Assembly: GCF_024972755.1 (NCBI RefSeq)
Contig: NZ_CP087724.1
Span: 372,001-436,000, forward strand
Reading direction: 5' to 3'
DNA: 64,000 nucleotides
From: Halanaeroarchaeum sp. HSR-CO
GTDB lineage: Archaea; Halobacteriota; Halobacteria; Halobacteriales; Halobacteriaceae
Part shown: in pieces, positions 1,881 through 43,731 of the stretch
Numbering within the stretch: position 1 is the first letter of the stretch
Layout: each line of letters opens with the position of its first letter
Notes under the pieces: model-generated
What the model was told of the DNA's origin: nothing
The model's input: only the letters and a program-made list of their open reading frames with translations
The model's database searches: none
Made by a program: the position numbers and the translations under genes

Positions 1881-2245
1881 CTGACCAGGGTGACCGTAAC
1901 GTGTGAGTTGAGCAGGACGAACTCCGCGATGGGCCCGAGCCGGATCTTCCCCATCGAACTCTGCTCGCCGCCGCCGATGACCACCTGTCCGTATCCTTCC
2001 GCTTCTGCGGTCCGGACGAGTTCGCTGCCGGGGTCGCCCTCGAGGTGGCGGATCTCGGCGTCGCAGTCCGCCTCGTCGAGGGCCTGCTGGGCCTCGGCTT
2101 CTATCTCGTCGAAGGACCGGTCGCTCTCCGGATTGTCGACGATGGCAACGGTCAGATCGTCACCGGCTCGCTGGGCTCGTTCCACCGTCTGTCGGAGTGC
2201 CGCGAGCGAGTCGTCGCTTCCCCCGATACCGAGCAACACTTTCAT
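1877..2245 (-). CDS. Universal stress protein-like, short
   Basis: 122 residues from the ATG at 2245, chosen because MKVLLGIGGSDDSLAALRQ is the conserved Usp start; the 53 codons upstream are Arg-rich and unlike a protein. The C-terminal part contains VVIGGGEQSSMGKIRLGPIA, a variant of the Usp nucleotide loop, then LNSHVTVTLV, the last strand. It is shorter than the usual 140-150 residues. It is the first gene of a two-gene unit with the GNAT acetyltransferase (4-nt overlap). Some Usp proteins are acetylated, but whether this pair interacts is unknown. Confidence 0.85.
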   Translation of the reverse strand: MKVLLGIGGSDDSLAALRQTVERAQRAGDDLTVAIVDNPESDRSFDEIEAEAQQALDEADCDAEIRHLEGDPGSELVRTAEAEGYGQVVIGGGEQSSMGKIRLGPIAEFVLLNSHVTVTLVR

Positions 2246-2439
2246 AGGCGGACATCGACGTTCCGTTGCAAAAGGATTACGGGCCGTCGACGTTTCCGCC
2301 CCGAACTGACGGGGTTCGGGGGTCCCCTCATCTCGGTCGGCGTGGCGTCGCATCGTGCAGTCGAGTTCGACCCGTTCCAGCGCCCGACCCGAGTCACGGT
2401 GCAACTATACACTTCGGATGGTAATGGTGGGTAACGGAC

Positions 2440-13480: not shown

Positions 13481-14512
13481 CTACTCCGGCGACGTCACCC
13501 GTGCCGCACCCGGTTCGAAGGTGAGGACGCGGGTCATTCCGGCTCTGAGGTCTGCGGCGTCCGCCGCGGAGAGACCGACCGTCACCTGTCCCAGGCCGTC
13601 ACAGTCGACGATGGCCGTTCCGCCGGCGTGGTGGCCGATGACCCGACGCACCGAACAGGGCACCGCGTTCGGCCCCGTCGTCTGTCCTCGACGGTGGAGT
13701 GTGACGTCGTCGGGGCGGACGGCCACTGCGACCTCGGAGCGGTCGATCAATCCCACCGCTTCGACGATGGTCGGGCCGACGTCCACGGTCGTCGTCTCGC
13801 CGTCGGTGGCCACGACCGTCCCGTAGAAGATGTTCTCCATCCCGAGGAAGTCCGCCACGAAGGCGCTGTTCGGGGCTTCGAAGACGTCCTCGAACCGACC
13901 GGCCTGGACGATGCTTCCGTCGTGGACGATGGCGAGTCGATCACCCACCACGGCCGCCTCGTCCTGATCGTGGGTGACGTAGACGACCGGGACGTCCAGA
14001 TCCGCGAGGACGTCTCTGAGTTCCAGTCTGAGCCGTCGGCGGATCGGGGCGTCGAGACTCGCCAGCGGTTCGTCGAGCAACAGGACGGCGGGCTCCGAGA
14101 CCAGCGCCCGGGCCAGGGCGACCCGCTGTTTCTCCCCGCCGGAGAGTGTCTCCGGCCGCCGCTCGAGCAGGTCCGTGATGGCCAGCATCTCGGTCGTCTC
14201 GGTGACGTCCGCGGTCGGCGCCGCTCCGAACGCCAGGTTCTCCTCGACCGTGAGATGCGGGAACAGCGCGTAGTTCTGGAACACCATCCCCACCTGGCGG
14301 TCCTCCGGTGGGAGTCGGTCGATGCGCCGACCGTCGAGGGTGATCACTCCCGTGTCCGGCCGCTCGAAGCCGGCGATCAACTGGAGGAGCGTCGACTTTC
14401 CGCTCCCGCTCGGGCCGATGACGGCGGTGACTCCCGGCTCGAAGGTACCGTCGATGGGGCCCAGCGTGAACGACCCGTACGCGATGGAGACGTCCTGCAG
14501 TGAGAGACTCAT
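13481..14512 (-). CDS. wtpC: Tungstate/molybdate ABC transporter ATP-binding protein
   Basis: 343 residues: an ABC ATPase (about 1-235) plus a C-terminal TOBE-type regulatory domain (about 245-343). Walker A is GPSGSGKST, the signature TLSGGEKQRVALARAL, Walker B VLLLDEPLASLD, and the switch His VTHDQ. It powers the WtpB permease from the cytoplasmic face. The TOBE domain of ModC/WtpC proteins can bind oxyanion and feed back on import. It starts 1 nt after the stop of wtpB, as the last gene of wtpABC. ModC or a sulfate-type CysA is the alternative; WtpA and the nearby W/Mo enzymes favour tungstate or molybdate. Confidence 0.88.
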   Translation of the reverse strand: MSLSLQDVSIAYGSFTLGPIDGTFEPGVTAVIGPSGSGKSTLLQLIAGFERPDTGVITLDGRRIDRLPPEDRQVGMVFQNYALFPHLTVEENLAFGAAPTADVTETTEMLAITDLLERRPETLSGGEKQRVALARALVSEPAVLLLDEPLASLDAPIRRRLRLELRDVLADLDVPVVYVTHDQDEAAVVGDRLAIVHDGSIVQAGRFEDVFEAPNSAFVADFLGMENIFYGTVVATDGETTTVDVGPTIVEAVGLIDRSEVAVAVRPDDVTLHRRGQTTGPNAVPCSVRRVIGHHAGGTAIVDCDGLGQVTVGLSAADAADLRAGMTRVLTFEPGAARVTSPE

Positions 14513-14513
14513 C

Positions 14514-15347
14514 TCATGAACTCAGCGTGATCCGCTGGCCGACGTACTGGAGGGCGAGGACCACCGTAAAGCCCGTCCCGAGCAGGATGACCACCAGTGG
14601 CGCCGTCGCCGCGACGCCGTCGGAGATGAAGGTCACCCAGATCTGGGTGGGCATCGTATGTGGGTGATAGGCGGTCATCATCGTCGCGCCGAACTCGCCG
14701 ATGGCCCGCGCGAAAGTCAATACGACGCCGGCGAGGATACTCCCCCTGGCCAGCGGGAGCGAAACCCGGCGGAACGTCTCGATCGGCCCCTTGCCGAGGC
14801 TCCGGGCCGCCTGTTCGATCTCGCGATCGATCCCTTCGAAGCCAGAACGGGCCGTGATGATGACGAACGGCGAGGCCACGAAGGTCTGGGCGAGGATGAT
14901 ACCGAGGTAACTGCCGGTGAGCGAGATGCCGAACGCGTTGGCCAGGCTTCCGAGCGGCGTCAGCTGACCGAACCCGCTCAACAACATCACCCCGCCGACG
15001 ACGGGTGGCATCACCAGCGGTAACACGACCAGTGCGTCCACGAACAGCTTCCCCGGGAAGGAGGTCCGGGCGAGCACGTACGCCAGGGGGACGCCGAAGA
15101 CGGTCGCGATGACCGTCGAGACCGGCGCCGTCAGCACGGAGTACTTGACGGCGTCGAGGACCGCTGGCTCGGCGAACGCCGCGGGCTGGAGGGTATCCGC
15201 CCAGGTGAAAAACGAGACGAACGGATACGCCAGGTAGATCAGCAGGACGGCCCCGAGCAGGACGAAGAGGCCGCGTTCCCGCAGGAACTGCGTCCCCGTG
15301 CCGTACTCCCCACGGGACAGTCGGCCGATACGGGTGGCGACGCTCAT
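14514..15347 (-). CDS. wtpB: Tungstate/molybdate ABC transporter permease
   Basis: 277 residues from the ATG at 15347. Six transmembrane helices are visible, the first at FVLLGAVLLIYLAYPFVSFF. The permease EAA loop that docks the ATPase reads EQAARSLGKGPIETFRRVSLP (shown here in part; about residues 185-205), and FARAIGEFGATMM is typical of ModB/WtpB permeases. It forms the homodimeric channel for the oxyanion. Its ATG overlaps the stop of wtpA by 4 nt, and its own stop is 1 nt before wtpC, so the three genes form one operon. Confidence 0.9.
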   Translation of the reverse strand: MSVATRIGRLSRGEYGTGTQFLRERGLFVLLGAVLLIYLAYPFVSFFTWADTLQPAAFAEPAVLDAVKYSVLTAPVSTVIATVFGVPLAYVLARTSFPGKLFVDALVVLPLVMPPVVGGVMLLSGFGQLTPLGSLANAFGISLTGSYLGIILAQTFVASPFVIITARSGFEGIDREIEQAARSLGKGPIETFRRVSLPLARGSILAGVVLTFARAIGEFGATMMTAYHPHTMPTQIWVTFISDGVAATAPLVVILLGTGFTVVLALQYVGQRITLSS

Positions 15348-16285
15348 GGGAGCACCTCGTCGGGGACCGGCCCGTTGGGAACCGGGAAGGAGTCGTCGAC
15401 GATGAGGCCGTTCTCGGCGAGCAGGTGGGCGTTTTCCAGCAGGTACCGGACGAACGCCCGGCCCGCCGCTGGGTTGTTGGCTTCCGTGGAGACTGTGGCG
15501 TTGAAGAGAATCGGTTTCCCCTGGACTGTGTGCCCATCGTCCATCTCGTAACTGACCGAGCCGTACTGGTCCGCCAGCGCCGGATTCGAGAAATTGAGCT
15601 CGTCCGGGAGCGGGTGGAACTGGAGCCCGTGGTCGATGGCCATGTTCCTGTAGGTGATGGCGGCTACCCGGTCGCCCGTCTCGACGGCCGCGAGCATGTG
15701 AGCCTCCTCCGGGTCGACCTGGAGCCCCTCGATGAGCGCATCGGCCAGTCCGGGTTCGTCGTAGTACTGCTCGGCCAGCCTGAACAGCATCACGGTCCGG
15801 TAGCCAAGCGGGTCGAGGTCCGGGTCCGACCGGGCGATGGTCGCGTCGGTCTCCACCAGCGCCCGATACCACGGCTGGCCGTCTTCGATGCGGGCCGCGA
15901 GGTCGGTGTCCGCCGCGTAGGTGAGGCCGACGCTGTTGGACGCGAACACCACGTCCCACTCGCTTTTGGGCGTCTCGCCCTTCTGGAGTTTATCGCGCAA
16001 CAGTCGGTGGTCCGCACTCACGATGACGTCGGGTCGTTTCTGTCCCTCCAGGACCATCCGCATGACGGCGTTCGAGCCGTGAAACTCCCCGCGGTACTCG
16101 TACCCCGTTGCCTCCGCGAACCGCGGTCCGACGACGTCGTTGAACACGACTGCCAGTGACCCCGCAGAGAGGACCGACACCCGCTCACTCGCCCCGGACC
16201 CCGCACAGCCGGCTAGCGTGCCGATGCCGAGGGCACCGCCCGCCGCGAGCACCTCGCGTCTCGTCACGGTGTCCGTTCCGTTCAT
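15344..16285 (-). CDS. wtpA: Tungstate/molybdate-binding lipoprotein
   Basis: 313 residues from the ATG at 16285. The N-terminus is a Tat-type lipoprotein signal: TRREVLAAGGALGIGTLAGC with a twin Arg and a lipobox Cys. The mature part begins RVSVLSAGSLAVVFND and continues with EFHGSNAVMRMV and PDVIVSADHRLL, matching the WtpA/ModA pattern in which backbone and Ser contacts hold the oxyanion. It would capture tungstate or molybdate outside the membrane for WtpBC. The start is supported by a TATA box at 16307-16315, 26 nt upstream, giving a leaderless mRNA. An upstream extension to 16384 would hide the Tat signal. Confidence 0.9.
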   Translation of the reverse strand: MNGTDTVTRREVLAAGGALGIGTLAGCAGSGASERVSVLSAGSLAVVFNDVVGPRFAEATGYEYRGEFHGSNAVMRMVLEGQKRPDVIVSADHRLLRDKLQKGETPKSEWDVVFASNSVGLTYAADTDLAARIEDGQPWYRALVETDATIARSDPDLDPLGYRTVMLFRLAEQYYDEPGLADALIEGLQVDPEEAHMLAAVETGDRVAAITYRNMAIDHGLQFHPLPDELNFSNPALADQYGSVSYEMDDGHTVQGKPILFNATVSTEANNPAAGRAFVRYLLENAHLLAENGLIVDDSFPVPNGPVPDEVLP

Positions 16286-16306
16286 ACCTGAAGTGAATGG
16301 TTGTGG

Positions 16307-16315
16307 TTTATTTAT
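16307..16315 (-). promoter_or_regulatory. TATA box of wtpABC
   Basis: Reads ATAAATAAA on the minus strand. Its centre is 26 nt from the wtpA ATG, which predicts transcription starting at the A of the start codon. No ModE-like palindrome is evident around it. Confidence 0.6.
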
Positions 16316-16392
16316 CCCTTTCCAGAACCCATTCTCACTCACTTCGTTCGAGGCGCCCCGGTCCACGTAACGTGAATCGGCCACCCCACCGG

Positions 16393-17776: not shown

Positions 17777-18877
17777 TTACGCGTCCTCGAACCCGTCCTC
17801 CCAGCGGAACCGGCCGTTGCGCTGGACGACCTCGTCGTCGACGAGCATCCGGGCGTCCTCGGACGTGTCCGTGATCATGTCGACGTGGACGGCACTCTGG
17901 TTGCCCGTCTCCCCCTCGGGCAGGGTGGCGTCGTAGGCCCGTCCCAGCGCGAGGTGGACGGTCTCGCCCATCTTCTCGTCGAAGAGGATGTTGTCGGTGA
18001 CCCGGTCGATACCGCGGTTCATCCCGATGCCGAGCTCGCCGAGCCGTCGCGCTCCCGCGTCGGTCTCGACGGTTTCGGTGACGACTGCCTCTCCCTGTGC
18101 GGCCGACCAGTCGACCACCTCGCCGTCCTCGAAGGTGAGCCGGACGTCTTGGACGCGCCGACCGTCGATGGTCATCGGCACGTCGAACAGGACCGTCCCC
18201 TCGGTGGCGTACGGCGCGGTGAACACCTCGCCGCTCGGGAGATTGTGCGAGTCGTAGGCGACGGAGGCGGCGCTGTTGACCGCAGTCCGTCCCTCGATGG
18301 CCATCGTCAGATCCGTCTCCGCTTTGATCAGTCTGACTTCGCTGCCGTCGTCGAGGACGTCTTTCAGTCGGTCCATCTCCCCGGCGAGTGCCTCCCAGTC
18401 GCGGAGGACCGCGCCGTAGACGAAGTCCTGGTAGGCCCGGTAGGACATCCCGGCCTGCTGGGCGAGCGACCGCGTCGGATGCTGGGTCGATACCCAGTCG
18501 GTGTCCATCCGGGCTTCGCGGATCCCCGCCCGGGACCGGCGGTACTCCTGTCTGGTCTCTCCGGGAACGTCGGCCAGCTCGGCGGTGTTCCGGCCACCGC
18601 CGAGGAGCAGGACGCTGTCCGCGTTTCGATACAGCGCGAGTTCGTGGGCCGGATCCTCGTCGAACTCCCTCTCGCGGGCGTCGAGGTAGGCGCTCTGCAG
18701 TTCGGTAGCGGCGTTGATAATCACCGGGTTCGCTCCCCGTTCCCCGAGCACCTCGAGGACGGCGACCCCGAGGTCGTGAGCCGCCGGCCCGACCGACACG
18801 ACGACGTCGTCGCCGGCGTCGATACGGGCGCTCCAGTCGACGAGGACGGTCGCGTGCTCCCTGACTCGTTCGTCCAT
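17777..18877 (-). CDS. M29-family metal aminopeptidase
   Basis: 366 residues, typical for the thermophilic aminopeptidase (M29) family, which removes N-terminal residues using a pair of metal ions in the cytoplasm. Features include the N-terminal Rossmann-like part (VVVSVGPAAHDLG) and the metal-binding C-terminal part: NLPSGEVFTAP (Glu ligand), LGELGIGMNRGID (Glu), KMGETVHLALGRAY (Glu/His) and SAVHVDMITD (His, Asp). Its start is 40 nt downstream of mobA on the same strand, so it may be the tail of the W/Mo operon by read-through. No functional link to that operon is known. Confidence 0.9.
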   Translation of the reverse strand: MDERVREHATVLVDWSARIDAGDDVVVSVGPAAHDLGVAVLEVLGERGANPVIINAATELQSAYLDAREREFDEDPAHELALYRNADSVLLLGGGRNTAELADVPGETRQEYRRSRAGIREARMDTDWVSTQHPTRSLAQQAGMSYRAYQDFVYGAVLRDWEALAGEMDRLKDVLDDGSEVRLIKAETDLTMAIEGRTAVNSAASVAYDSHNLPSGEVFTAPYATEGTVLFDVPMTIDGRRVQDVRLTFEDGEVVDWSAAQGEAVVTETVETDAGARRLGELGIGMNRGIDRVTDNILFDEKMGETVHLALGRAYDATLPEGETGNQSAVHVDMITDTSEDARMLVDDEVVQRNGRFRWEDGFEDA

Positions 18878-18917: not shown

Positions 18918-19538
18918 CTACGACCGGTCGATCCGGGTCGCGGCAGTCCGCAAGTCTTCCGGCGTATTGACGTTGAAGAACGTGTCGGTGGACGCCACGG
19001 CGTCCGGATTCCAGACGACGACGTGATTGAGCTCGAAGGCGGGTTCGATCGGGCGTTCGACGCCGCCTTCGAGCGCGTCGTCGAGCGCGTCGACGAACGG
19101 CTCGACGGCGTAGACTGCCTGCAGCGGCTGATACCACCCCTCGTCCTGTCGCGGGAGCGCCGCCTCGACCTGCGCGGCCCGATCGAAGAGAAAGGCGAGG
19201 AAGTCCCGGTCGACGAAGGGCATATCGCAGGCCAGAACCACCGCGTACCGCCCGTTCGCGGCGTCGAGTCCGCGCCGCATTCCGGCCAGCGGTCCCGCGT
19301 TCGGCCGCTCGTCGGGGGCAACGGTGACGGCCGTGTCCTCGAAGACGGCGTCCAGCTGTGATCGCTGGCGTGGGTGACAGTTGACGACGACCTCGTCGAC
19401 GACCGGATCGACGCGGTCGGTCACGTGCCGGACGAGCGGGCGGCCGGCGAGGTCGGCGAACACTTTATCCTGGTCGCCGAACCGCTTCGAGGCACCGCCA
19501 CAGACGACGACCGCGGTGCGGGCGACCGTCTCAGACAT
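18918..19538 (-). CDS. mobA: Molybdenum cofactor guanylyltransferase
   Basis: 206 residues. MobA transfers GMP from GTP to Mo/W-molybdopterin, giving the bis-MGD form used by DMSO-reductase-family enzymes such as the formate dehydrogenase in this operon. The nucleotide loop reads VVCGGASKRFGDQDKVFADL (variant of the GGxSxRMGxDK loop, with Phe for Met). The metal/nucleotide segment is VVLACDMPFVD and the substrate region is NAGPLAGMRRGLD. VNTPEDL near the C-terminus is standard. The start overlaps the upstream AOR gene by 8 nt, making it the last gene of the eight-gene operon. Confidence 0.9.
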   Translation of the reverse strand: MSETVARTAVVVCGGASKRFGDQDKVFADLAGRPLVRHVTDRVDPVVDEVVVNCHPRQRSQLDAVFEDTAVTVAPDERPNAGPLAGMRRGLDAANGRYAVVLACDMPFVDRDFLAFLFDRAAQVEAALPRQDEGWYQPLQAVYAVEPFVDALDDALEGGVERPIEPAFELNHVVVWNPDAVASTDTFFNVNTPEDLRTAATRIDRS

Positions 19539-21399
19539 CGGTTGGGGTGGCCGTTCGCGGGTGCGACCGACTGACTGCCCCTCGGTCGTCGATCAGGTCG
19601 CCGAGACCCAGCCGTTCGAGGGTTCCCGGCTCGATACCCTCGTCGGTCCACCCGCGCAGATCGTAGTAGCGTTCTCGCATCGTCGCGAGTTCGTCTGCGG
19701 AGAACGATAGCTCCGGCAAGTCGGTGCCGGCCGGCGACCCCTGGATCGGCTGGCGGAGTCGGTCGGGCAGGTCGTCGTGATCGACCGTGAACCCTTCCCG
19801 GGCCGCGAAAATCTTCCCGAGTGTGAAGTTTCGCTCGCCGATGCGCAGGGAGGCATCGACGTCCAGGTCTAGCCCGGTGGTGGCCGCGACGAGACTGACG
19901 ATGTCCCGGTAGTTCCGGTCGCGCCCGACCGTGGTCACGAGGTGTGAACAGAACACGAGCGAGTTCACGAAGCTCTGGGCGTTCTCGAAGACGATCACCG
20001 CTTCCGGTTTCCCCGTCGTCTCGGCCATGGCCAGGCCGGTGTCGACGGGGAGCGCCGTCTCCACGGCCGCCCGCTCCAGCAGTGCGTCGTCGAACCCCTC
20101 GGTGTGGGTACCGCCGCGCGGCGAGACCGCCGCCGAGAGTCCAACCCCCTTCTTGCCCCGGGGATCGTGCATACTCGCCGGCGCGCCCTTGATATGAGCG
20201 ACGCCGCCGTCCAGTTCGAGGGCGTCCTCGGTCGCCTTCGGGCCGTCAGCCAGGACCACGCCGATCCCCTCGCGGTGGGCGATCTTCTCGATCAGTTCGA
20301 GGATCGCCCGGGAATCGCCCCACTCGTAGCGCTCCGTGGCCTCCATGGCCGCCGCGATGGCGTGACCCGTACCGATCGTATCCAGGCCGTAGGCGTTACA
20401 GCGGCGATTCGCCTCGGTGATCGTCGCGAGGTCGTCGTTCATCACGAGGCTGCCGAAGGAGACGATAGTCTCGTACTCCGGGCCGCCGGTTCGCACGGTC
20501 TCCTCGTCGATCGTCGTCGAGACCGTGTTCTTGCACTTCACCGGGCAGTTGACACAGCCGTGTTGGTCGACGGTGAGCCCATCGAGGGCTGCACCGCCGA
20601 TCTCGGCCGCTCCCTCGAACGAGCCGTCCGCGAAGTTCTTCGTCGGGAGCATTCCTCGCTCGTTCAGGATCTCGACGTTGGTCGTCGTCCCGAACTCGCC
20701 CCAGGCCATCAGGCGGTCGTTCTCCCGGAGCGACCGCATGAACGCGGTCCGCTCTTCCTGCAGGCGGTCGGGATCCGCGATCGGTGGCGGCGTCGAACCC
20801 CCGACCACGACGCCTTTGAGCCGTTTGGCACCCATGACGGCCGCCAGCCCCCGCCCGGCGGCGGCCCGGGCGTCGTCCGTGATGATGGCGGCGATGCGAA
20901 CCTGTCGCTCGCCGGCCGGTCCGATGCAGGCGGCCGATCGGGCGCCCGGAGCGAGGTCGCCGGTACAGTCGTCCACCCGCCGACCCCACTGGTCCGCCGC
21001 GGGACGCAACGCGGGGTCGCCATCGGTCACTTCGAGGACGACCGGTTCGTCCGCGGTACCCCGGATAACCACGCCGTCGAACCCGGAGAGCGCGAGCTGC
21101 CGTCCGAACCGGCCGCCAGCGAAGGACTCGCCGAGACTGCCGGTGAGTGGCGATTTACTTCCGACCCAGACCCGGGACGCCCCAGGGACCCCCGTTCCGG
21201 TCAGCGGCCCGGTGGTGAAGACCAGCGTGTTCTCGGGACCCAGTGGATCGACGTCCGCCGACTGCCGCTCGAGCAGGAGCCGAATTCCGAGGCCGCGGCC
21301 ACCCAGGTGGTCGCTGAGCCAGCGGTCCGGAATCCCGACGGTCTCGACGGTGCGGTCGTCGAGGTCGACTGCCAGGAGGTTACCGTGGAATCCGTCCAT
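19531..21399 (-). CDS. Aldehyde:ferredoxin oxidoreductase family (tungsten) protein
   Basis: 622 residues, full AOR length. AORs use a W-bispterin site and one [4Fe-4S] cluster to oxidise aldehydes to acids, or run in reverse, with ferredoxin. Pterin-binding signatures are HLGGRGLGIRLLL (about 31-43) and GSLGESFAGGRFGRQLA (about 87-103). Cluster ligands are Cys282, Cys285, Cys289 (HGCVNCPVKC) and Cys484 (LVFCSHLV). The start at 21399 (MDGFHGNLLAVDL) matches the family N-terminus and overlaps the polyferredoxin gene by 20 nt. No Tat signal is present, so it is cytoplasmic. The subgroup (AOR, FOR, GOR or an uncharacterised type) is not decided. Confidence 0.92.
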   Translation of the reverse strand: MDGFHGNLLAVDLDDRTVETVGIPDRWLSDHLGGRGLGIRLLLERQSADVDPLGPENTLVFTTGPLTGTGVPGASRVWVGSKSPLTGSLGESFAGGRFGRQLALSGFDGVVIRGTADEPVVLEVTDGDPALRPAADQWGRRVDDCTGDLAPGARSAACIGPAGERQVRIAAIITDDARAAAGRGLAAVMGAKRLKGVVVGGSTPPPIADPDRLQEERTAFMRSLRENDRLMAWGEFGTTTNVEILNERGMLPTKNFADGSFEGAAEIGGAALDGLTVDQHGCVNCPVKCKNTVSTTIDEETVRTGGPEYETIVSFGSLVMNDDLATITEANRRCNAYGLDTIGTGHAIAAAMEATERYEWGDSRAILELIEKIAHREGIGVVLADGPKATEDALELDGGVAHIKGAPASMHDPRGKKGVGLSAAVSPRGGTHTEGFDDALLERAAVETALPVDTGLAMAETTGKPEAVIVFENAQSFVNSLVFCSHLVTTVGRDRNYRDIVSLVAATTGLDLDVDASLRIGERNFTLGKIFAAREGFTVDHDDLPDRLRQPIQGSPAGTDLPELSFSADELATMRERYYDLRGWTDEGIEPGTLERLGLGDLIDDRGAVSRSHPRTATPTDV

Positions 21400-23380
21400 C
21401 GGTTGGGCGTCCCTCCATCGTTCTACATGACGGGCACACCTCGAGGTCGAGCGCCTCGAGGCTCGCATCGTCGAGTCGGTCGCGCATCGCGTCCAGTCCG
21501 GACTGCGATGCGAACGGTTCCCCACACACTCGACACTCCACGCGGTCCTGCTCGACGACCGTCCGAGTGTCTCCGAGCGATCCCGCTTCGACGGTGATCG
21601 TCTCCGTGACCGTGATGGCGTCTTCCGGACAGCCGGTCTCGCAGAGCCCACAGCCGACACAGGCCGCCGGATCGAAGGACAGCGTGCCGTCGGACTGGGT
21701 GAGTGCACCGGTCGGACAGAGGTTGTCACAGGTATCACAGAGCGTGCACGCCGACTCCTCGACGGCCACCTCTCCCACTCCCGGTGCAGTCACGGTCACC
21801 GTCCCACCGCCCTGGTCGGCGACCATCGCCACGGTGGCATCCCGGCCGAGCGCGTGTCGGGAGTCGAGGGAGACGGCACCGGTCTCGGCCGCTTCGCGGG
21901 CGTCGGACGGCAGCATCGTGGACAGCGTCTCGGCGAGGCCGGCCGGCGAGGCGGTATCGGCGACGTGGACGCGTTCGCCGACGCCGATATCCGCGAGCGC
22001 GCGGTTCGCCGACCGGGCGGTTTCCGTCACGGGGTCGAGGGGCCGTTCGGGGTCGCTCGCCAACAATACGCCGTCGGCACCGAGTGCGACCACGTACTCG
22101 GCGACTGCGTCGGGAACGGCCAGCACGTTCGGCACCGTGATCGGAATCACCGGTGGGGTCGGCCGTCCGGTTAGCGCCGCCTCGAACGCCGGCCGAACGC
22201 CGTCACTGACGAAGGCGACGGCGAAGGGAACCGGTTCGGTGCCGCGCGACAGCAACCCCCCACCGATCTCGTGTGTCTCGAGGAGCGGCCCGACGGCGTC
22301 GCGGACCATCCTCGCGTGGGTGGCGACGTCGAATGTCCGGGTGGGCTCGATCGAATCGGTGGGACAGACAGACACGCAGGTGCCACAGGCGACACAGCGG
22401 TCCGGCCTGATCCGTACGCCGCCATCGCCGGCGATCGAGACCTCGATTGCGTCGTTCGGACAGGCCGCCTCGCAGGCTGAACAGCCGGCCTGGCCGTTCC
22501 GACCGACCGCACAGGTCTCGGCGTCGACGGTGACCGGTTCGGCGTGTCGACGGTCGGCCGCCTCGCGCACCGCCGCCGTGACGCCGGCGCTCTCGGTGTG
22601 CATCCAGATGGTGTCCGCCAGATCGCCGTCGTACTCCGGCCACACGATCTGGTCGGCGGCGAGCGTGTCCGTGTACGGGTCGTCGGCCGGGCGGATCGCG
22701 TCGACGGGACAGACTCCGCCGATCGGTTCGTCGGTTTCGACGGCGACCGGGACGTTCGTGGTGGCCTCGGGATACTGTCTGAGACAGCGCCCACAGCCGG
22801 TGCAGTCCGGCGTCACGCGACTGGAGACGGTGAGTTCGTACCCGCTTTCGGCCTGGGTGACGTCGACGACCGTTCCGGGTCGAACCGCAACGTCGTTCGG
22901 CATCGACGCTGCGGAGAGTTCCCGACCGTCGGCGAGTAGCGTGACGTCGGCGACCGCGGCCAGATCGGTGGCCGCCGTCGGATCGCCGACCACCACGACG
23001 TCGTCGCGTTCGTCGGCCGTCTCGTGAACGAAGTCGGCGCGGTCGGGCATCGCCGCGAGCTCGGCATTACCCGCGCCGGCGACGATCGCGGTCGCCTGTG
23101 GTTCTTGCTGGCCGGCACCCAGGTACGGGCTGATCGTCGCCGTCTGAATGTCGGCGTCCTCGAGCGCCGCGCGGAACGACTCGCGGATCGGATCGTCGCC
23201 AGCGATCAGGAGCACCGCATCCGGATCGGCGTCGAGGACTCGGTCCCTGAGGTCCGCCGCGTGGGCCGATAGTGATGGGGTCGTCACCGTCTCGGCCGCG
23301 GTCAGGGCCCCGGCGACCGCCTCTCTATCGATAGCCGCGGTGCCCCGGCAGTCACTCACGACGGCGACGACGTGGCTCAT
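21380..23380 (-). CDS. Polyferredoxin with HdrA/MvhD-like core
   Basis: 666 residues, soluble. Five [4Fe-4S]-type motifs are visible: Cys193/196/199 with Cys224, Cys290/300/303/307, Cys329/332/335/339, Cys545/548/551/555 and Cys574/577/580/584. A C-terminal CxxC...CxxC knuckle (616/619 and 649/652) follows. Between the second and third pairs (about 386-480), VPNVLAVPDAVAEYVVALGADGVLLASDPER resembles in outline the MvhD domain that passes electrons to heterodisulfide reductase (shown here as a description; key residues GADGVLLA at 434-441), but the Cys of MvhD are absent. The N-terminal 180 residues are also Cys-poor and Rossmann-like. It is probably an electron hub between the AOR and the formate dehydrogenase. 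Confidence 0.85.
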   Translation of the reverse strand: MSHVVAVVSDCRGTAAIDREAVAGALTAAETVTTPSLSAHAADLRDRVLDADPDAVLLIAGDDPIRESFRAALEDADIQTATISPYLGAGQQEPQATAIVAGAGNAELAAMPDRADFVHETADERDDVVVVGDPTAATDLAAVADVTLLADGRELSAASMPNDVAVRPGTVVDVTQAESGYELTVSSRVTPDCTGCGRCLRQYPEATTNVPVAVETDEPIGGVCPVDAIRPADDPYTDTLAADQIVWPEYDGDLADTIWMHTESAGVTAAVREAADRRHAEPVTVDAETCAVGRNGQAGCSACEAACPNDAIEVSIAGDGGVRIRPDRCVACGTCVSVCPTDSIEPTRTFDVATHARMVRDAVGPLLETHEIGGGLLSRGTEPVPFAVAFVSDGVRPAFEAALTGRPTPPVIPITVPNVLAVPDAVAEYVVALGADGVLLASDPERPLDPVTETARSANRALADIGVGERVHVADTASPAGLAETLSTMLPSDAREAAETGAVSLDSRHALGRDATVAMVADQGGGTVTVTAPGVGEVAVEESACTLCDTCDNLCPTGALTQSDGTLSFDPAACVGCGLCETGCPEDAITVTETITVEAGSLGDTRTVVEQDRVECRVCGEPFASQSGLDAMRDRLDDASLEALDLEVCPSCRTMEGRPTDGRIPR

Positions 23381-23985
23381 CGATCGACCTCCAGCCTGTC
23401 CATGTCGACGGCGACCAGTCCCGCCGCGACGTCGGCCACGGCTGGGTAGAACGGGCCGTCGGCCGTTTCCCGGACGTCCGCGGCCAGCGCGTCGAACCAG
23501 TCACCGTGTGCCGCGAGGAACCGAACTTTCGCGTCGGGATCGCTCGCCGCTCGGTTGGAGAGTTCCCGGAGCGCGGCGAGTTCTACGGCCGCGTGGTCGG
23601 CTTCCTCTTTGAGGTCGGCCGCCGGTTCGATACCCAGTGCGTCGTAGTCCCGGGACACCGCTGCGAGTGGTTCGCCGAGGAAGTCGCCGGCGTACCAGGA
23701 TTCGTGGATCTGGAGTTGCGGTCGCGGGCCCACGAACAGGCGCGTGTACTCGGTCGCCAGGCGATCTGCCTCCTCGGCGGGGTCCTCGACCCCGTCGGCC
23801 CACGTCCGAAGCGCCTCGAGGCCGGCAGCGAGTCGATCGTCCGGCGCGACGGCCGGGTCCGGGAGTGCACCGTCGTGCAGCGTACGGACCCACGCCTCCG
23901 TCGGTGGATCCGCGAAGGCGGTGGCGGCGAAGTCGTATAGCTGGGCGAGCGTCGATTCCGCGTCGGGGTCAGTTGTGGGAGTCAT
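23377..23985 (-). CDS. torD: TorD/DmsD-type molybdoenzyme chaperone
   Basis: 202 residues, all-helical, of typical TorD length. These chaperones bind the Tat signal and apo form of a bis-MGD enzyme until cofactor insertion is complete. LATEYTRLFVGPRPQLQIHESWY (about residues 76-98) is the diagnostic E-Y-x-x-L-F-x-G-P region, with the E-S-x-x family contact; DHAAVELAALREL is the following helix. The client is presumably the Tat-signal formate dehydrogenase subunit encoded four genes upstream in the same operon. Overlaps of 4 nt with both neighbours indicate co-translation. Confidence 0.9.
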   Translation of the reverse strand: MTPTTDPDAESTLAQLYDFAATAFADPPTEAWVRTLHDGALPDPAVAPDDRLAAGLEALRTWADGVEDPAEEADRLATEYTRLFVGPRPQLQIHESWYAGDFLGEPLAAVSRDYDALGIEPAADLKEEADHAAVELAALRELSNRAASDPDAKVRFLAAHGDWFDALAADVRETADGPFYPAVADVAAGLVAVDMDRLEVDR

Positions 23986-24929
23986 AGGTCAGTGTCTCCG
24001 GTGAGTCGCAGGGAGAGGCCGTAGAACAGGGCGAGCAGTCCGGCCAGGAGGACGATCGCCACCAGATTCAATCCGATCGTCCAGACGAACCCGAGGCTGC
24101 CGCCCATGAGTGCGCCGGGTTCGAGGTCGAATAGCAGCGTCTCCCCGGTGCCTGGCAGGGGTGCCAGCACGCGGTCCAGAACGATCCCGGAGTAGACGAC
24201 GGCGAAGACGACGAGGACGCCGATGGCGCCGGCGACCTCTGGTGTCCGACGAGCCGTGGACCCGCCGTCGGCGGCGACGCGGCCGTCACCGACCCAGTCG
24301 GCCCACTCCTTGCGGGCGCGTTCGACCGAAACGCGGCCCGTGAACATGGACTCGTCCAGGGGGAATTCGACCATGTGGGTGTCCCAGAGATGGTAGGTCA
24401 CGCCCATCAGCAGCGTGTAGGCGACCACTGCGTGCACGTCGCTGACGATCAAAAACGACGGCTTGTAGGCCAGTAGCAATCCAGGGAAGGTCAACACCAG
24501 TCCGGTGGCGACCAGGACGAGGGACTCCGCGGCGATGATCAGGATCTCCGATTTCTGGATCCAGGTGTACTTCCCCGCGGTCGGTTTGGGGCCCACGCCG
24601 ACGGCCCACTTCGCGTAGGCGATGGCTTCGCGAACGGTCTCGCCGTCCGGGAGCCAGGCGGTGGGAACGTCGCCGGTAAAAAGCCCCAGCAGGACGTAAA
24701 ACGCGTAGTAGAGGAGGACGACGAAGAGGAGAACCCCCACCAGCACGTGGACCAGGATCAGATTGTCGCTCCCGACGAGCGCCGCGATCCACCCGACGTG
24801 GCTCCCGAAGGTGATGCCCAGTCCCGTCAGCAGCAGGGATAGGATCGAGGCCGCCAGCAGGAGGTGGACGTACACCTGGACGCCGGTGAACCGCACCAAT
24901 CCGCCGGTATCCGCGTGGCCGTCGCTCAT
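23982..24929 (-). CDS. Cytochrome b subunit of formate dehydrogenase
   Basis: 315 residues from the ATG at 24929, which overlaps the preceding stop by 4 nt. Four helices similar to the di-haem FdnI/HydC cytochrome b fold are seen: VQVYVHLLLAASILSLLLTG, LVHVLVGVLLFVVLLYYAFY, ILIIAAESLVLVATGLVL and VHAVVAYTLLMGVTYHLW. They carry candidate haem His residues, and two extra C-terminal helices follow (about 235-255 and 285-310). It should take electrons from the Fe-S subunit to the quinone pool. The C-terminal two-helix extension is longer than FdnI (about 215 residues) and may dock another partner. Confidence 0.85.
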   Translation of the reverse strand: MSDGHADTGGLVRFTGVQVYVHLLLAASILSLLLTGLGITFGSHVGWIAALVGSDNLILVHVLVGVLLFVVLLYYAFYVLLGLFTGDVPTAWLPDGETVREAIAYAKWAVGVGPKPTAGKYTWIQKSEILIIAAESLVLVATGLVLTFPGLLLAYKPSFLIVSDVHAVVAYTLLMGVTYHLWDTHMVEFPLDESMFTGRVSVERARKEWADWVGDGRVAADGGSTARRTPEVAGAIGVLVVFAVVYSGIVLDRVLAPLPGTGETLLFDLEPGALMGGSLGFVWTIGLNLVAIVLLAGLLALFYGLSLRLTGDTDL

Positions 24930-25213
24930 GCGATCGCCTCCGTGTCGGACCGTTTGAGGCCGAGGAGCAGGAGGACGGACACTCCGGCGACCACGCCGGT
25001 CACGTACAGCCCGACGATTCCCCGCGCGAGCAGCCACGTGCCAGTGTACGCCTCGTACTGGGCGGGCTGGCCGGCGACGGTCGCGAGCGTATCACGCATC
25101 CAGACGCCGGTCGTGAGACCGGGTGCGGCGGCGTCCAGGGCGAACAACACCACGCCGGCGACGATGACCGCTCCGGAGGCCGCCACGGCGTGTCTGAGTG
25201 TCTTGGTGTTCAT
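24926..25213 (-). CDS. Small two-helix membrane subunit
   Basis: 95 residues with two clear transmembrane segments: AAASGAVIVAGVVLFAL-type helix near residues 10-28 and IVGLYVTGVVAGVSVLLLLGL near 66-86. A periplasm-like loop of about 35 residues joins them. No recognised domain. It lies between the Fe-S subunit and cytochrome b genes and overlaps the latter by 4 nt. The E. coli FdnH Fe-S subunit carries its own membrane helix and the one here does not, so this peptide may supply the missing anchor. That is an inference from gene order. Confidence 0.75.
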   Translation of the reverse strand: MNTKTLRHAVAASGAVIVAGVVLFALDAAAPGLTTGVWMRDTLATVAGQPAQYEAYTGTWLLARGIVGLYVTGVVAGVSVLLLLGLKRSDTEAIA

Positions 25214-25236
25214 CGTTCGGTAATGGGAGAGTCGAG

Positions 25237-25791
25237 TCAGTCACTTCCCACGCCGAAGACGACCTCGGACTCCGCGGCGCTGAAGGCGGTCTCGCTCCCG
25301 CGACTGCGGAGCTCGGAGGCGATCTCCCCCGGCGTCCCGAAGACCAGGGCGTCCGTCGGACAGGTCTCCACGCAGGCCGGCTCCTCGCCGTCTTCGAGGC
25401 GATCGACACAGGTCGTACACTTGTCCATGGTCCCGGCCCCGCCGGTAGTGGCCGATTCCTCGGGGTACTGGGGGGCGCCGAACGGACAGGCCCACGAACA
25501 GTACGAACAGCCGATACAGGTGTCCTGGTCGACCTGCACGAGACCGTGCTCGTCGCGGTGGAGGGCGTCGGTCGGACACACGTCGATACAGGGCGCCTCC
25601 TCGCAGTTATAGCACTGCATCGGCGTGTGGGACTCGCCGCCCGAATAGCGGGTCCCCTCCTCGCCCTCGTTGTGGGTCACGACCTCGATACGCTCGGCCG
25701 AGTGGGGGACGTCCCACTCGACCTTGCAGGCGACCTCACAGCCGCCGCAGTCGATACAGCGGTCGCCGTCGGGAACGACGCGCAGCGTCAT
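25237..25791 (-). CDS. Formate dehydrogenase Fe-S (electron transfer) subunit
   Basis: 184 residues with four [4Fe-4S] motifs in the FdnH/DmsB order: CIDCGGCEVAC (about 13-23), CYNCEEAPCIDVC, CIGCSYCSWAC and the split CTTC...CVETC. These relay electrons from the catalytic subunit toward the membrane. There is no Tat signal and no C-terminal transmembrane helix, so export would be by hitch-hiking on the catalytic subunit. The start overlaps the fdh alpha stop by 4 nt and the next gene begins 23 nt downstream. Confidence 0.9.
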   Translation of the reverse strand: MTLRVVPDGDRCIDCGGCEVACKVEWDVPHSAERIEVVTHNEGEEGTRYSGGESHTPMQCYNCEEAPCIDVCPTDALHRDEHGLVQVDQDTCIGCSYCSWACPFGAPQYPEESATTGGAGTMDKCTTCVDRLEDGEEPACVETCPTDALVFGTPGEIASELRSRGSETAFSAAESEVVFGVGSD

Positions 25792-28739
25792 TCGCCATCA
25801 CCTCCGAGCGGGGTGCGGACGTATCCCTTCTCCTGCTGGAAGGCGAGCTGTTCGTCCGGGAGGTCGGGGATCTGGTCCGCGCTCGCCTTCTCGACGAGCG
25901 CGAGGTTCGCTTTCGTCTCTTGCATCATCGTCTGTGGGTCGTAGCCGTCGGAGGTGCCGATGTTGGCCGAGTCCCCGATGGCCAGCGGCTCGAGACCGTC
26001 GGGATACCGATCGGCGAGCGATTCGCCTTCGAAGACGCCGCCCCAGTGGAACGGGAGGAAGATCTCCTCCTGGTTGACCCGCTCGGTGACCTTCGCCTGG
26101 ACGACGATCGTTCCGCGGTCGGTGCCGACCGTGATCCACTCGCCGGTCTCCACGCCGATCTCGTTGGCGACCGCCGGGTTGAGCTCGGCGTACATCATCG
26201 GTGCACGCTCGGCGGTGTACGGGTTGTTTCGGGTCTCCGCGCCGCCGCCGGTGTGCTCGACCTGCCGGCCGGTCGTCATGATCAGCGGTCGCTCGTCGAC
26301 CATGTTCAGCCGCTCGCGCTGGTTGCCCGCGTTGTCGAGGTTGACCCGATAGAGGTCCTCCAGGCGGTCGTAGTTGGGATACTCCTCGGCCAGGTCGGGG
26401 CGGGGGGTCTCGACGGGTTCGCGGTGGATGGGGACCGGATCGTGGAGGTTCTCCGCCGTCATTCGGGCCCGTCCACGACCGGTCGGGGGATCGGGCTGTT
26501 CGGCGTCGAACTCGCTGTACTCCTCGGGGTCGACGTCGTGGCCCGCTTCGGCGAGGGCCTTCGCGGCGTCGTAGACCGACATGTCCTCGCGTTCGGCGTA
26601 CTCGATCGGGATGGTCTTGGCCGCCGGCGTCTCCGGGTCCGGCAGGACGGTATGCCACATCGGGTACTGCGGAACGCCCTCGACGGTGCCGTCGTACCAG
26701 TCCGGTTCGTAGGGCTCGCGGAGCAGCGTCCCGGCGGGTCCCTCCGTTCCCCAGCGGGCACGGAAGTCGAGGCCACCTTCGGCGGGCGGTTTGCTGTCGT
26801 CGTAGAGGATGGGCGTGCCCGGGTGCTCGTCGTGCCACGAGGGCCATGGCAGCCCGAAGTAATCGCCGGCCAGCGGGTGGTCGTCGGTGACCTCTGCCTT
26901 GAGGTCGTCCGAGCTGAATACGCCCGCGTTCTCCATATGGGCCTTGATCCGCTCGGGCGTCTGTCCGATCATGCCGATCGTCCGCATGCCGAGGTTCCAC
27001 TCGCGGGTGACGTCTTCGACCTCCTCGTAATCGAAGTGCTCGCCGAAGCCCAGTCGGTCGGCGAGATCCTGCATGATCTCGAAGTCCGTCCGGGAGTTGT
27101 GTCGCGGGGTGACCGCCCGCGAGCGCCACTGGATCGACCGGTTGGAGTTCGTAACGCTGCCCTCGGCCTCGAGCTGGGTCGCGGCGGGCAACAGGTAGAT
27201 GCCGTCGTCCCGGTCCGGCAGCGAGGAGGTCAACGCGGGGTAGGGATCGACGCCCACGATGATATCCATGTTCTCCATGGCCTCCTTCATGCGTTTCATC
27301 TCGCTGATGGAGTTCAGCGAGTGCCCCCAGATGACGGCGGCCTTCAGCGGGTTCGGCTGGTGGAAGTCGGTACCCGCCTCGGCGTCGGGGTGGGCGGCCT
27401 CGTACCACCGCGAGACCGTGAGGCCGTTTTTCTCCATCAGATCGGTGCTGTGGAACCGCGAGCGCATGTCCTCGTAGGACGTCGACCCGCTGGTGCTCGG
27501 CGTCTGGTCCCAGACCGACGACCAGTGGTCCCAGGCGCCCGCCCCGAGCCCGTAATACCCGGGGAGCGTATGCGAGAGGATACACGTGTCCGTCGCGCCC
27601 TGGACGTTGTCGTGCCCACGGAGCGGGTTCGCCCCGCCGCCCGACTGCGCGGCGTGTCCCAGCGCGAGGTTGAGGATGGCGTAGACGCGGATGTTCTGGG
27701 TGCCATTGGTGTGCTGGGTCGCGCCCATCGCCCAGTCGACGGTACTCGATTCGGCGTTCGCCAGCGTCTCGGCGACGGATTTGAGGTCCGCGACGTCGAC
27801 CCAGGTGATGTCGGAGACGGTCTCCAGGTCGTACTCGCGAATGGTCTCCTTGACGTCTTTCCACCCGTAGACCCGGTCGCGGATGAACGCCTCGTCGTGG
27901 GCCTCGAGGTTGAAGACGATGTGATAGAGCAGGCCGTAGATGAAGGGGACGTCCGTGCCAGGGCGGAACCGGACGAACTCGTCGGACTGCGCGGACGTCT
28001 TCGTAAAGCGGGGCTCCGCATTGATGACGGTGCCGCCGTTGCGCTGGGCCGCCTGCACGTACTGCATCATCACCGGGTGTGACTCGGTGGTGTTGTGCCC
28101 GATGATGAGGGTGGCGTCCTGGTGCTGGAAGTCGTTGATCGGGTTGGTCTGGGCGCCAAAGCCCCAGGTGTTCGCGAGACCGGCGACGGTGGTAGAGTGA
28201 CAGATACGGGCCTGATGGTCCACGTTGTTCGTCCCGTAGAAGGCCGCGAACTTGCGGAACATGTAGGCCTCTTCGTTGCTGACCTTCGCCGACCCCATCC
28301 AGAAGGTGCTGTCCGGACCGTACTCTTCACGCACCCGCGAGAGTTCGCTGGCGATGTCGTCGAGGGCCTCCTCCCAGCTGACCGGGACCCACTCGCCGTT
28401 CTCCTTTTTCATCGGCTCTTTGAGCCGGGTCTCGGAGTTGACGGTGTCCACGAGGCTCGCGCCCTTCGCACAGAGTCCGCCCTGGTTGATCGGGTGGTCG
28501 TTCCAGGTTTGCTGGCCCACGACCGCGTCCTCTTCGACCTCCATCTTGAGACCGCAGCCGACCGCGCAGTGCGTACAGATGGTCTTGACGGTTTCGGGGT
28601 CGGCGGACCCCGTCTCGCCCGCGTCGTCGTCTTCGGTGCCACTTTCGGCCAGAACTCGTCCGCTACCCGCGGCAGCGGCCAGCGCCGTACCGCTAGCCGC
28701 TTTGAGGAAGTTCCGGCGTTCGAGTTCGAGACTCGACAT
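25788..28739 (-). CDS. fdhA: Formate dehydrogenase catalytic subunit (Mo/W-bis-MGD, Cys type)
   Basis: 983 residues from the ATG at 28739 (an in-frame ATG at 28748 adds three). It opens with a Tat signal (ERRNFLKAASGTALAAAAGS), so it faces outside the membrane. A [4Fe-4S] cluster is bound by Cys55, Cys58, Cys62 and Cys90, followed by the electron-relay Lys92. The metal ligand and catalytic pair are Cys180-His181 in QARICHSTTVAG, at the place of the SeCys-His of FdnG. That pair, FdnG-like surroundings (NNVDHQAR; NDFQHQDATLIIGHN) and the operon partners favour formate dehydrogenase over nitrate or polysulfide reductase. The molybdopterin dinucleotide-binding domain fills the C-terminal about 150 residues. 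Confidence 0.88.
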   Translation of the reverse strand: MSSLELERRNFLKAASGTALAAAAGSGRVLAESGTEDDDAGETGSADPETVKTICTHCAVGCGLKMEVEEDAVVGQQTWNDHPINQGGLCAKGASLVDTVNSETRLKEPMKKENGEWVPVSWEEALDDIASELSRVREEYGPDSTFWMGSAKVSNEEAYMFRKFAAFYGTNNVDHQARICHSTTVAGLANTWGFGAQTNPINDFQHQDATLIIGHNTTESHPVMMQYVQAAQRNGGTVINAEPRFTKTSAQSDEFVRFRPGTDVPFIYGLLYHIVFNLEAHDEAFIRDRVYGWKDVKETIREYDLETVSDITWVDVADLKSVAETLANAESSTVDWAMGATQHTNGTQNIRVYAILNLALGHAAQSGGGANPLRGHDNVQGATDTCILSHTLPGYYGLGAGAWDHWSSVWDQTPSTSGSTSYEDMRSRFHSTDLMEKNGLTVSRWYEAAHPDAEAGTDFHQPNPLKAAVIWGHSLNSISEMKRMKEAMENMDIIVGVDPYPALTSSLPDRDDGIYLLPAATQLEAEGSVTNSNRSIQWRSRAVTPRHNSRTDFEIMQDLADRLGFGEHFDYEEVEDVTREWNLGMRTIGMIGQTPERIKAHMENAGVFSSDDLKAEVTDDHPLAGDYFGLPWPSWHDEHPGTPILYDDSKPPAEGGLDFRARWGTEGPAGTLLREPYEPDWYDGTVEGVPQYPMWHTVLPDPETPAAKTIPIEYAEREDMSVYDAAKALAEAGHDVDPEEYSEFDAEQPDPPTGRGRARMTAENLHDPVPIHREPVETPRPDLAEEYPNYDRLEDLYRVNLDNAGNQRERLNMVDERPLIMTTGRQVEHTGGGAETRNNPYTAERAPMMYAELNPAVANEIGVETGEWITVGTDRGTIVVQAKVTERVNQEEIFLPFHWGGVFEGESLADRYPDGLEPLAIGDSANIGTSDGYDPQTMMQETKANLALVEKASADQIPDLPDEQLAFQQEKGYVRTPLGGDGE

Positions 28740-28771
28740 ACAGTGCATTAGTTTTGCCTAACGCCCCATAG

Positions 28772-40933: not shown

Positions 40934-41167
40934 ATGGCTGTACTCGAGGCGACGACGGGTGAGGCCGTCCGTATCTCGCTCGACAAGCAACTCTGTAAAG
41001 GGTGTGAGATCTGCGTCTCGCAGTGTCCGACGGACGTCTTCGGGATGGCTGGCTCGCCACCGGAGCGATATCCGGTCGTCGAGGCCGTCGACGACTGCGT
41101 GGACTGTGGCATCTGCGAACTCATCTGTCCGGATTTCGCGCTGTCGGTGGAGGGCGTCGATGAGTGA
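40934..41167 (+). CDS. korD: 2-oxoacid:ferredoxin oxidoreductase, delta (ferredoxin) subunit
   Basis: 77 residues from the ATG at 40934. Two [4Fe-4S] motifs are complete: CKGCEICVSQCP (about 21-32) and CVDCGICELICP (about 55-66), both with the following Pro. This is the architecture of KorD/VorD/PorD, the chain that moves electrons from the ThDP site to soluble ferredoxin. The extended upstream frame (to 40775) would add sequence from the repeat region and is rejected. The stop overlaps the alpha-subunit start by 8 nt. Confidence 0.9.
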   Translation: MAVLEATTGEAVRISLDKQLCKGCEICVSQCPTDVFGMAGSPPERYPVVEAVDDCVDCGICELICPDFALSVEGVDE

Positions 41168-42311
41168 CGCCGCCACTCCGCTGGGGGCGACCGACGTGTT
41201 GCCCCCCGGCAATCGGTTCATGACCGGCGACGAGGCGATCGCCTACGGAGCCATCTACGCCGGCTGTCGGTTCTTCGCGGGCTATCCGATCACGCCGGCG
41301 AGCGAAGTCGCCGAGACGATGTCCGCCGAGCTTCCGAAGGTCGGCGGGCGGTACGTACAGATGGAAGACGAACTGGGGTCGATCGCCGCGGTCGTCGGCG
41401 CCTCCTGGAGCGGTCGGAAGGCGATGACGGCGACATCCGGCCCCGGATTCTCGTTGATGCAGGAGAACCTGGGCTACGCCATCATGACCGAGACGCCACT
41501 GGTGCTCGTGGACGTGCAACGAAGTGGTCCCTCGACCGGGCAGGCCACCCTGCCGGCCCAGGGGGACGTCCAGCAGGCCCGGTGGGGAACGCACGGCGAC
41601 CACCCGATCGTGGCGCTCACCCCCGCCTCCGTCCAGGAAGCGTTCGACATGACGGTGCGGGCCTTCGACATCGCCGAGCGCTATCGCACGCCGGTCGTGT
41701 TGCTCGCCGACGGGATCATCGGCCACGCCCGGGAGAGTTTCACCGTCCCAGAGTCGGTGTCGACGGCGAGTCGGACGGTCGCCACGGCTGACGACGAGCG
41801 GGTGTTCGGCGACGAGGATGTCGCGCCGATGCCCCAGTTCGGCGAGGGATTGCGGGCACACGTGACCGGCTCCACCCACGAACCCGACGGGATGCGGGAC
41901 GTCAACACCCAGGCGGTTCACGACGATCTGATCAGGGGGATGCACGAGAAGATCGAGCAAAACGCCGATGACATCGTCGAGGTCGACGCCTGGCACGCCG
42001 AGGACGCGGACACCGTGGTCGTCGCCTACGGGATCACGGCGCGGACGGCGGCGGGCGCCGTGGAACGACTGCGGGACGACGGCATGGACGTGGGACAGCT
42101 CACGCTGAAGACCCTCTGGCCGTTCCCCGAAGACCACGTCGAGGCCGCGGCGGCGGGGGCGACCGAGATATACGTCCCCGAGCTGAATCTGGGACAGATA
42201 ACGCGGGAGGTCGAGCGCGTGACCGATCGGCCGGTGACCGGACTCGACCGGATCGGCGGGGAGCCGTGGACGGTCGACGAACTCGTCGCCGAGATCGGGG
42301 GTGACCGGTGA
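41160..42311 (+). CDS. korA: 2-oxoacid:ferredoxin oxidoreductase, alpha subunit
   Basis: 383 residues from the ATG at 41160. It has the pyrimidine-binding PYR-type domain of the KorA/VorA group: AGCRFFAGYPITPASEVAE (about 36-54), YVQMEDELGSIAAVVGASW and ATSGPGFSLMQENLGYA. The C-terminal third has VVAYGITARTAAGAVERLR, the domain II transketolase-C-like fold, and ends in the KorA-typical ELNLGQI. It catalyses oxidative decarboxylation of a 2-oxoacid to acyl-CoA with the beta chain. The substrate (2-oxoglutarate, branched 2-oxoacids or others) is not fixed by sequence; the Liv context favours an amino-acid-derived 2-oxoacid. Confidence 0.9.
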   Translation: MSDAATPLGATDVLPPGNRFMTGDEAIAYGAIYAGCRFFAGYPITPASEVAETMSAELPKVGGRYVQMEDELGSIAAVVGASWSGRKAMTATSGPGFSLMQENLGYAIMTETPLVLVDVQRSGPSTGQATLPAQGDVQQARWGTHGDHPIVALTPASVQEAFDMTVRAFDIAERYRTPVVLLADGIIGHARESFTVPESVSTASRTVATADDERVFGDEDVAPMPQFGEGLRAHVTGSTHEPDGMRDVNTQAVHDDLIRGMHEKIEQNADDIVEVDAWHAEDADTVVVAYGITARTAAGAVERLRDDGMDVGQLTLKTLWPFPEDHVEAAAAGATEIYVPELNLGQITREVERVTDRPVTGLDRIGGEPWTVDELVAEIGGDR

Positions 42312-43660: not shown

Positions 43661-43703
43661 ACGCCGGCTGGGGTTCCCGTGGTGGCTGCCCCTTTCGAAC
43701 CGC

Positions 43704-43708
43704 TTTAT
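43704..43708 (+). promoter_or_regulatory. TATA-like element of the ThDP enzyme gene
   Basis: tttat at 43704-43708, within cgctttatcc, centred 26 nt before the ATG at 43732. This predicts a leaderless message separate from korDAB, 71 nt after the korB stop. Confidence 0.5.
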
Positions 43709-43731
43709 CCGCGGTGGACTGAACTCGGAGT

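Follow-up and report, generated by a model that had tools for sequence, protein, structure and literature searches.

The eight-gene cluster at positions 18918-28748 of the window, by which we mean the whole 64,000-nt stretch of DNA analysed here, is mostly explained as a respiratory formate dehydrogenase (FDH) operon, which is real and conserved, and its aldehyde oxidoreductase (AOR) end is, as far as could be found, an undescribed variant. Our reading of the whole, plausible though still short of probable, is that an anaerobic, Halanaeroarchaeum-like haloarchaeon encodes here a respiratory formate:quinone oxidoreductase, along with a biogenesis set of its own and an AOR-family protein dedicated to FDH. 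The preliminary description of this DNA had proposed a candidate for an undescribed system. This appears to hold for the AOR end, as a search of the open-licence literature found no paper describing an AOR in haloarchaeal FDH operons, but not for the membrane FDH, whose orthologues have been published (HTSR_1573-1576 and AArc1_1462-5). Formate respiration in salt-saturated anoxic brines depends on this FDH, and the operon bears on how such cells supply tungsten to one enzyme but molybdenum to others.

Gene content of the formate dehydrogenase operon

All eight ORFs lie on the minus strand in the order fdhA, fdhB, two-helix peptide, cytochrome b, torD, polyferredoxin, AOR and mobA. Neighbouring genes overlap at six of the seven junctions (by 4, 4, 4, 4, 20 and 8 nt), and a 23-nt gap separates the remaining pair, exactly as first described. 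Domain searches along the operon returned the Molybdopterin, Fe4S4 and dinucleotide-binding families, FDH3-beta as best model, Ni_hydr_CYTB, Nitrate_red_del, several Fer4, AFOR_N plus AFOR_C, and MobA. The first gene, fdhA (25788-28748), encodes a 986-aa catalytic subunit (PF04879/PF00384/PF01568) with a Tat motif (ERRNFLKA) and a Cys-His active site (ARICHSTTV), through which it aligns with its best solved relative, 9vap_A (E = 8.5e-240), bearing out the earlier assignment to the Cys type. The product of fdhB (25237-25791) is an FDH3-beta-like, four-cluster Fe-S subunit (PF13247; 9vap_B, E = 4.5e-33). Between fdhB and fdhC lies a two-helix membrane peptide (24926-25213), for which domain searches gave no family, although it is kept in haloarchaeal FDH operons. 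This included a 57% identical copy in the nearest relatives (L036/L037) and 110-aa ORFs at the equivalent place in two further loci (L038 and L039). The cytochrome b gene (23982-24929, from ATG) encodes a quinone-type, FDH gamma-like subunit (PF01292, 60.8 bits; TIGR01583, 36.6 bits); PDB searches with this cytochrome and with the two-helix peptide produced no useful match. A TorD-family chaperone (23377-23985; PF02613, 69.8 bits) and a 666-aa HdrA/MvhD-like cytoplasmic Fe-S protein, the polyferredoxin (21380-23380), follow. The last two genes encode the AOR-family protein (19531-21399; 622 aa from ATG; AFOR_N, 218.8 bits and AFOR_C, 329.7 bits, both above cut-off) and MobA, a molybdenum (tungsten) cofactor guanylyltransferase (18918-19538; TIGR02665, 110 bits; PF12804).

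An M29 aminopeptidase gene on the same strand (17777-18877; PF02073) starts only 40 nt past mobA, so the transcript may extend further. Comparison of the mapped loci revealed no M29 peptidase gene next to the related operons. Approximately 2.5 kb downstream of mobA, also on the minus strand, lie genes for a WtpABC-like tungstate/molybdate ABC transporter (13481-16384; wtpA, 15344-16384; permease, about 14514-15350; wtpC, 13481-14512), which matched ABC_tran and, below the cut-off of 242.75 bits, TIGR03730 (144.9 bits). Elsewhere in the window (40959-45372), a gene for a thiamine-diphosphate enzyme comes after a 2-oxoacid:ferredoxin oxidoreductase pair (POR_N/PFOR_II and TPP_C/POR), a further ferredoxin-linked module.

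Three curated NCBIfam models for FDH all scored below their cut-offs (NF038355, 149.5 of 240 bits; TIGR01553, 342 of 814; TIGR01591, 497 of 666). Judged from its sequence and by these cut-offs, the enzyme is FDH3-like and no member of the FDH3, FDH-N or soluble Fdh-alpha family. The FdnGHI type named in the preliminary description was rejected, as the FDH-N model scored far under its cut-off. Its placement of FDH outside and AOR inside the cytoplasm was supported, and we consider the enzyme very probably a respiratory, Tat-exported membrane FDH. FdhA and FdhB would be loaded and folded in the cytoplasm with TorD and MobA-made bis-MGD, then exported via Tat. From what is known of the families, electrons from formate would reach menaquinone by way of the membrane peptide and cytochrome b.

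Recurrence of the gene order

The order fdhA-fdhB-small gene-cytochrome b-torD-polyferredoxin-AOR recurs in four other haloarchaeal lineages at 34-69% identity, with direct reading of the small gene limited to L038 and L039, and this recurrence makes the arrangement in the window more than chance. The co-regulated FDH-AOR module originally proposed survives as a conserved FDH module that includes the AOR, with seven of the eight genes kept in order; the part assigned to the polyferredoxin as link was not retained (described below). The position of mobA was not conserved either. Its place at the operon end is peculiar to the window, and in L038 and L039 the gene sits elsewhere, leaving an AOR-mobA pair unsupported as an ancestral unit.

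We searched 391 haloarchaeal genomes of the class for the polyferredoxin family, which was found in 110, and mapped 60 of the loci. Three layouts were distinguished. In layout (i), as in the window, an AOR of the same clade (type A hereafter) directly follows the polyferredoxin; this occurred in three genomes, all of another family (G182, G052 and G283), and a fifth type A copy with this layout came from a soda-lake MAG (L153). A transposase-like ORF (2126-3118) interrupts fdhA in G052 (L039:1756-5729), which may have silenced the operon there. Layout (ii), the same operon without the AOR, was that of the closest relatives (G007 and G001; fdhA 78% and polyferredoxin 54% identical). In layout (iii), found in many genera, fdhABC faces a divergent polyferredoxin-torD pair, and another AOR paralogue, often with mobA, lies a few kb off. 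A congener of the window's genome (G093) lacked the polyferredoxin.

Several of these operons belong to systems already known. Natrarchaeobaculum sulfurireducens AArc1 can use formate for growth with sulfur or DMSO, and expresses its membrane FDH (AArc1_1462-5) only anaerobically (PMC6176080); that paper describes the FDH subunits but makes no mention of an aldehyde oxidoreductase. The AArc1 operon (L038) matches the window from fdhA through to the AOR (fdhA 67%, AOR 61% identical), whereas its mobA lies upstream of fdhA. The membrane FDH of Halodesulfurarchaeum formicicum corresponds to HTSR_1573-1576 (PMC5437934). In the loci that probably belong to this organism (L036 and L037), judging from genome size and position, fdhA (78% identical), fdhB (82%), the small gene, cytochrome b, torD and polyferredoxin keep the window's order, but neither an AOR nor mobA accompanies them. 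Beyond the haloarchaea, an FDH3 cluster on a Sulfitobacter faviae plasmid (L096) likewise encodes FDH alpha, FDH3 beta, gamma, TorD and a full-length polyferredoxin homologue, with DUF3305, DUF3306 and a Tat peptide in place of the haloarchaeal small protein and no AOR.

A PsrABC-like reductase locus adjoins the FDH-AOR operon in AArc1 (L038:1535-6673) and in the MAG G283 (L040:626-3651), placing formate oxidation beside probable sulfur reduction in these two genomes.

Distribution and relatives of the polyferredoxin

In the preliminary description, the polyferredoxin was the link from the AOR to either the membrane FDH or quinone. Such an exchange of electrons would fit the invariable position of the AOR gene after the polyferredoxin gene, which it overlaps by 20 nt in the window, as well as the protein's content of at least four [4Fe-4S] motifs and its resemblance to HdrA/MvhD, which take electrons from FDH in methanogens (entry 7bkb). 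A predicted model of modest confidence (pLDDT 62) gave Foldseek matches to HdrA (5odi_A, E = 2.4e-11) and MvhD (5odh_D), from which the HdrA N-terminal and ferredoxin domains and the MvhD domain appear to be present. An MvhD (FlpD) domain also scored above cut-off in a haloarchaeal relative from L056, and domain search detected no FlpD domain in the window protein. However, alignment showed that the FAD-binding GxGxxG motif of HdrA is absent from the window polyferredoxin (VVVGDPTAATDLA; GDPTAATD), and its PDB matches included no WorS chain (9mqx_E, 8c0z_C). Occurrence also argues against a wire between the two proteins, as FDH loci of the nearest relatives (L036, L037), of Sulfitobacter (L096) and of many haloarchaea contain the family but no AOR. 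On a Natronorubrum bangense plasmid (L097), the polyferredoxin gene comes immediately after torD; an NrfD-type molybdoenzyme and arsenic genes lie alongside, and both FDH and AOR are absent. Finally, the polyferredoxin carries no export signal and so would be unable to reach FdhAB on the other side of the membrane. We consider this electron route unlikely, and the connecting role was not supported. The idea that the polyferredoxin is a small subunit belonging to the AOR (WorS type, as in class II-V WORs) was rejected given the lack of a WorS match and its occurrence without an AOR.

Because the polyferredoxin is kept without an AOR, follows TorD and lacks an export signal, we assigned it to the molybdoenzyme accessory set, and it is likely that polyferredoxin and TorD together serve exported molybdoenzymes in this way. 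Remaining in the cytoplasm and unconnected to the AOR, it would aid their maturation, most likely by supplying electrons or clusters. Its counterpart in the Sulfitobacter FDH3 cluster is a 4Fe-4S protein, with which it can be aligned along its length. A 'fer4' gene is listed in bacterial torD-fdh operons (PMC4464133), and the Sulfitobacter homologue is probably this gene. Polyferredoxins accompanying non-FDH molybdoenzymes were also seen at four more loci (L042, L043, L073 and L092).

Two types of AOR-family protein at formate dehydrogenase loci

Type A proteins were rare and confined to FDH operons. At E <= 1e-130, the window's AOR was matched in only 4/391 genomes, in one copy each and always directly after the polyferredoxin in an FDH operon; a GTDB contig scan with the AOR alignment returned two MAG loci only, one of them G283. 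In the tree, type A proteins form one clade. The window AOR and its three nearest relatives retain the four [4Fe-4S] cysteines, Thr243, Glu313 and His448 (PfAOR positions), whilst the second-shell Tyr427 is His in all four, a difference from aldehyde-oxidising WORs. The sulfonate enzyme WOR5 is described as carrying a Tyr-to-His exchange. The window AOR has the fold, the Fe-S ligands, Thr243, Glu313, His448 and the lack of a WorS subunit in common with class I tungsten oxidoreductases (PfAOR, 1aor; WOR83 of Haloferax volcanii, 9q1t), and differs from them in having His for Tyr427, in its restriction to FDH operons and in its separate clade.

These features bear on two catalytic explanations. 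The AOR may be an ordinary cytoplasmic tungsten aldehyde oxidoreductase donating to ferredoxin, which shares the operon only through a common need for tungsten and anoxia and exchanges neither electrons nor cofactor directly with FDH. The conserved ligands and residues in all four type A proteins speak for this, as do the ability of class I AORs to act alone with ferredoxin (PMC13328260) and the WtpABC-like transporter just downstream, and the full cluster site leaves a ferredoxin-linked reaction possible. However, type A was never seen outside an FDH operon, while the remaining AORs in these genomes occur on their own, and Tyr427 is replaced; we regard this explanation as rather unlikely. Alternatively, the AOR could turn formaldehyde, or another aldehyde, into formate (or the acid), which FDH would then oxidise. 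Formate is the FDH substrate, and one known subfamily of AORs is formaldehyde:ferredoxin oxidoreductase (1b25 was among the AOR matches). Such a chain is nevertheless improbable, as the FDH active site is extracytoplasmic and formate would first have to leave the cell, the tree did not firmly group the AOR with FOR, and the neighbours examined included no obvious formaldehyde-generating gene.

Among haloarchaea with FDH, the majority have an AOR paralogue of another kind, type B (L041-L098, L133-L148 and L163-L182; e.g. L056:15055-16728). The AOR near other haloarchaeal FDH loci is a separate clade without cluster ligands, and orthology with the window's AOR was rejected. All four cluster cysteines and the catalytic residue Glu313 were missing from 34/34 FDH-linked copies, whereas Thr243, Tyr427, His448 and conserved stretches around the pterin site were kept. 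As its nearest relatives in the tree bear a cluster, the cluster was probably lost. Type B was present in 104/110 genomes with the polyferredoxin, within 12 kb of it in 66/88, and mobA lay within 1.5 kb of type B in 15/45. In genomes without the polyferredoxin, type B was within approximately 6 kb of a cytoplasmic FDH (TIGR01591, 755.8 bits) in 11/20, sometimes at a spacing of 17-120 nt. FDH or polyferredoxin occurred in 200/202 genomes with type B compared to 98/189 without it, an association spanning many genera, although related genomes are not independent and Fisher values overstate it. In several genomes, type B lies far from any FDH. AArc1 (G182), G052 and G283 carry both types, the window's genome has FDH and type A without type B, and G017 has FDH with neither. 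The H. formicicum-like genomes combine an FDH operon lacking type A with a type B gene elsewhere.

Without an Fe-S cluster, type B cannot pass electrons to ferredoxin in the usual AOR manner and so probably does something else. Bis-Mo-MPT from the AOR-family protein YdhV is converted to bis-MGD by MobA in vitro and inserted into TorA (PMC9103625). As type B recurs beside FDH and mobA, and the YdhV cofactor is convertible by MobA, a role on the cofactor side is the leading idea for type B and, less firmly, for type A. The E. coli YdhV / class V WOR operon also co-encodes an AOR-family protein, which binds bis-MPT, with Fe-S and membrane proteins, but it specifies a Tat-exported WorS-type complex and has no link to FDH. 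By analogy, the window's AOR-family protein may bind a nucleotide-free bis-pterin tungsten cofactor, from which MobA would make bis-MGD, and holding this cofactor would help to dedicate tungsten to FDH. That the AOR serves FDH on the cofactor side is a tentative proposal. The type A catalytic site, complete but for Tyr427, counts against it, since this speaks for a working redox enzyme and not a carrier. Nor is type A needed for formate respiration, as the H. formicicum-like genomes have the FDH operon without it. A broader version, which we put forward as speculative and somewhat doubtful, is that AOR-fold proteins are tungsten-cofactor carriers on which haloarchaeal FDHs depend, passing nucleotide-free tungsten bis-pterin to MobA, with type B the cluster-less and type A, here, the cluster-bearing version. 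If true, the AOR fold would have a second function, and tungsten a delivery route of its own. An AOR clade tied to FDH operons and a cluster-less paralogue nearly never found without FDH offer a concrete handle on metal routing, and caution that an AOR annotation need not mean aldehyde metabolism. Across the whole of the window's genome (G000) there are five proteins of the AOR family and eight catalytic subunits of the CISM type.
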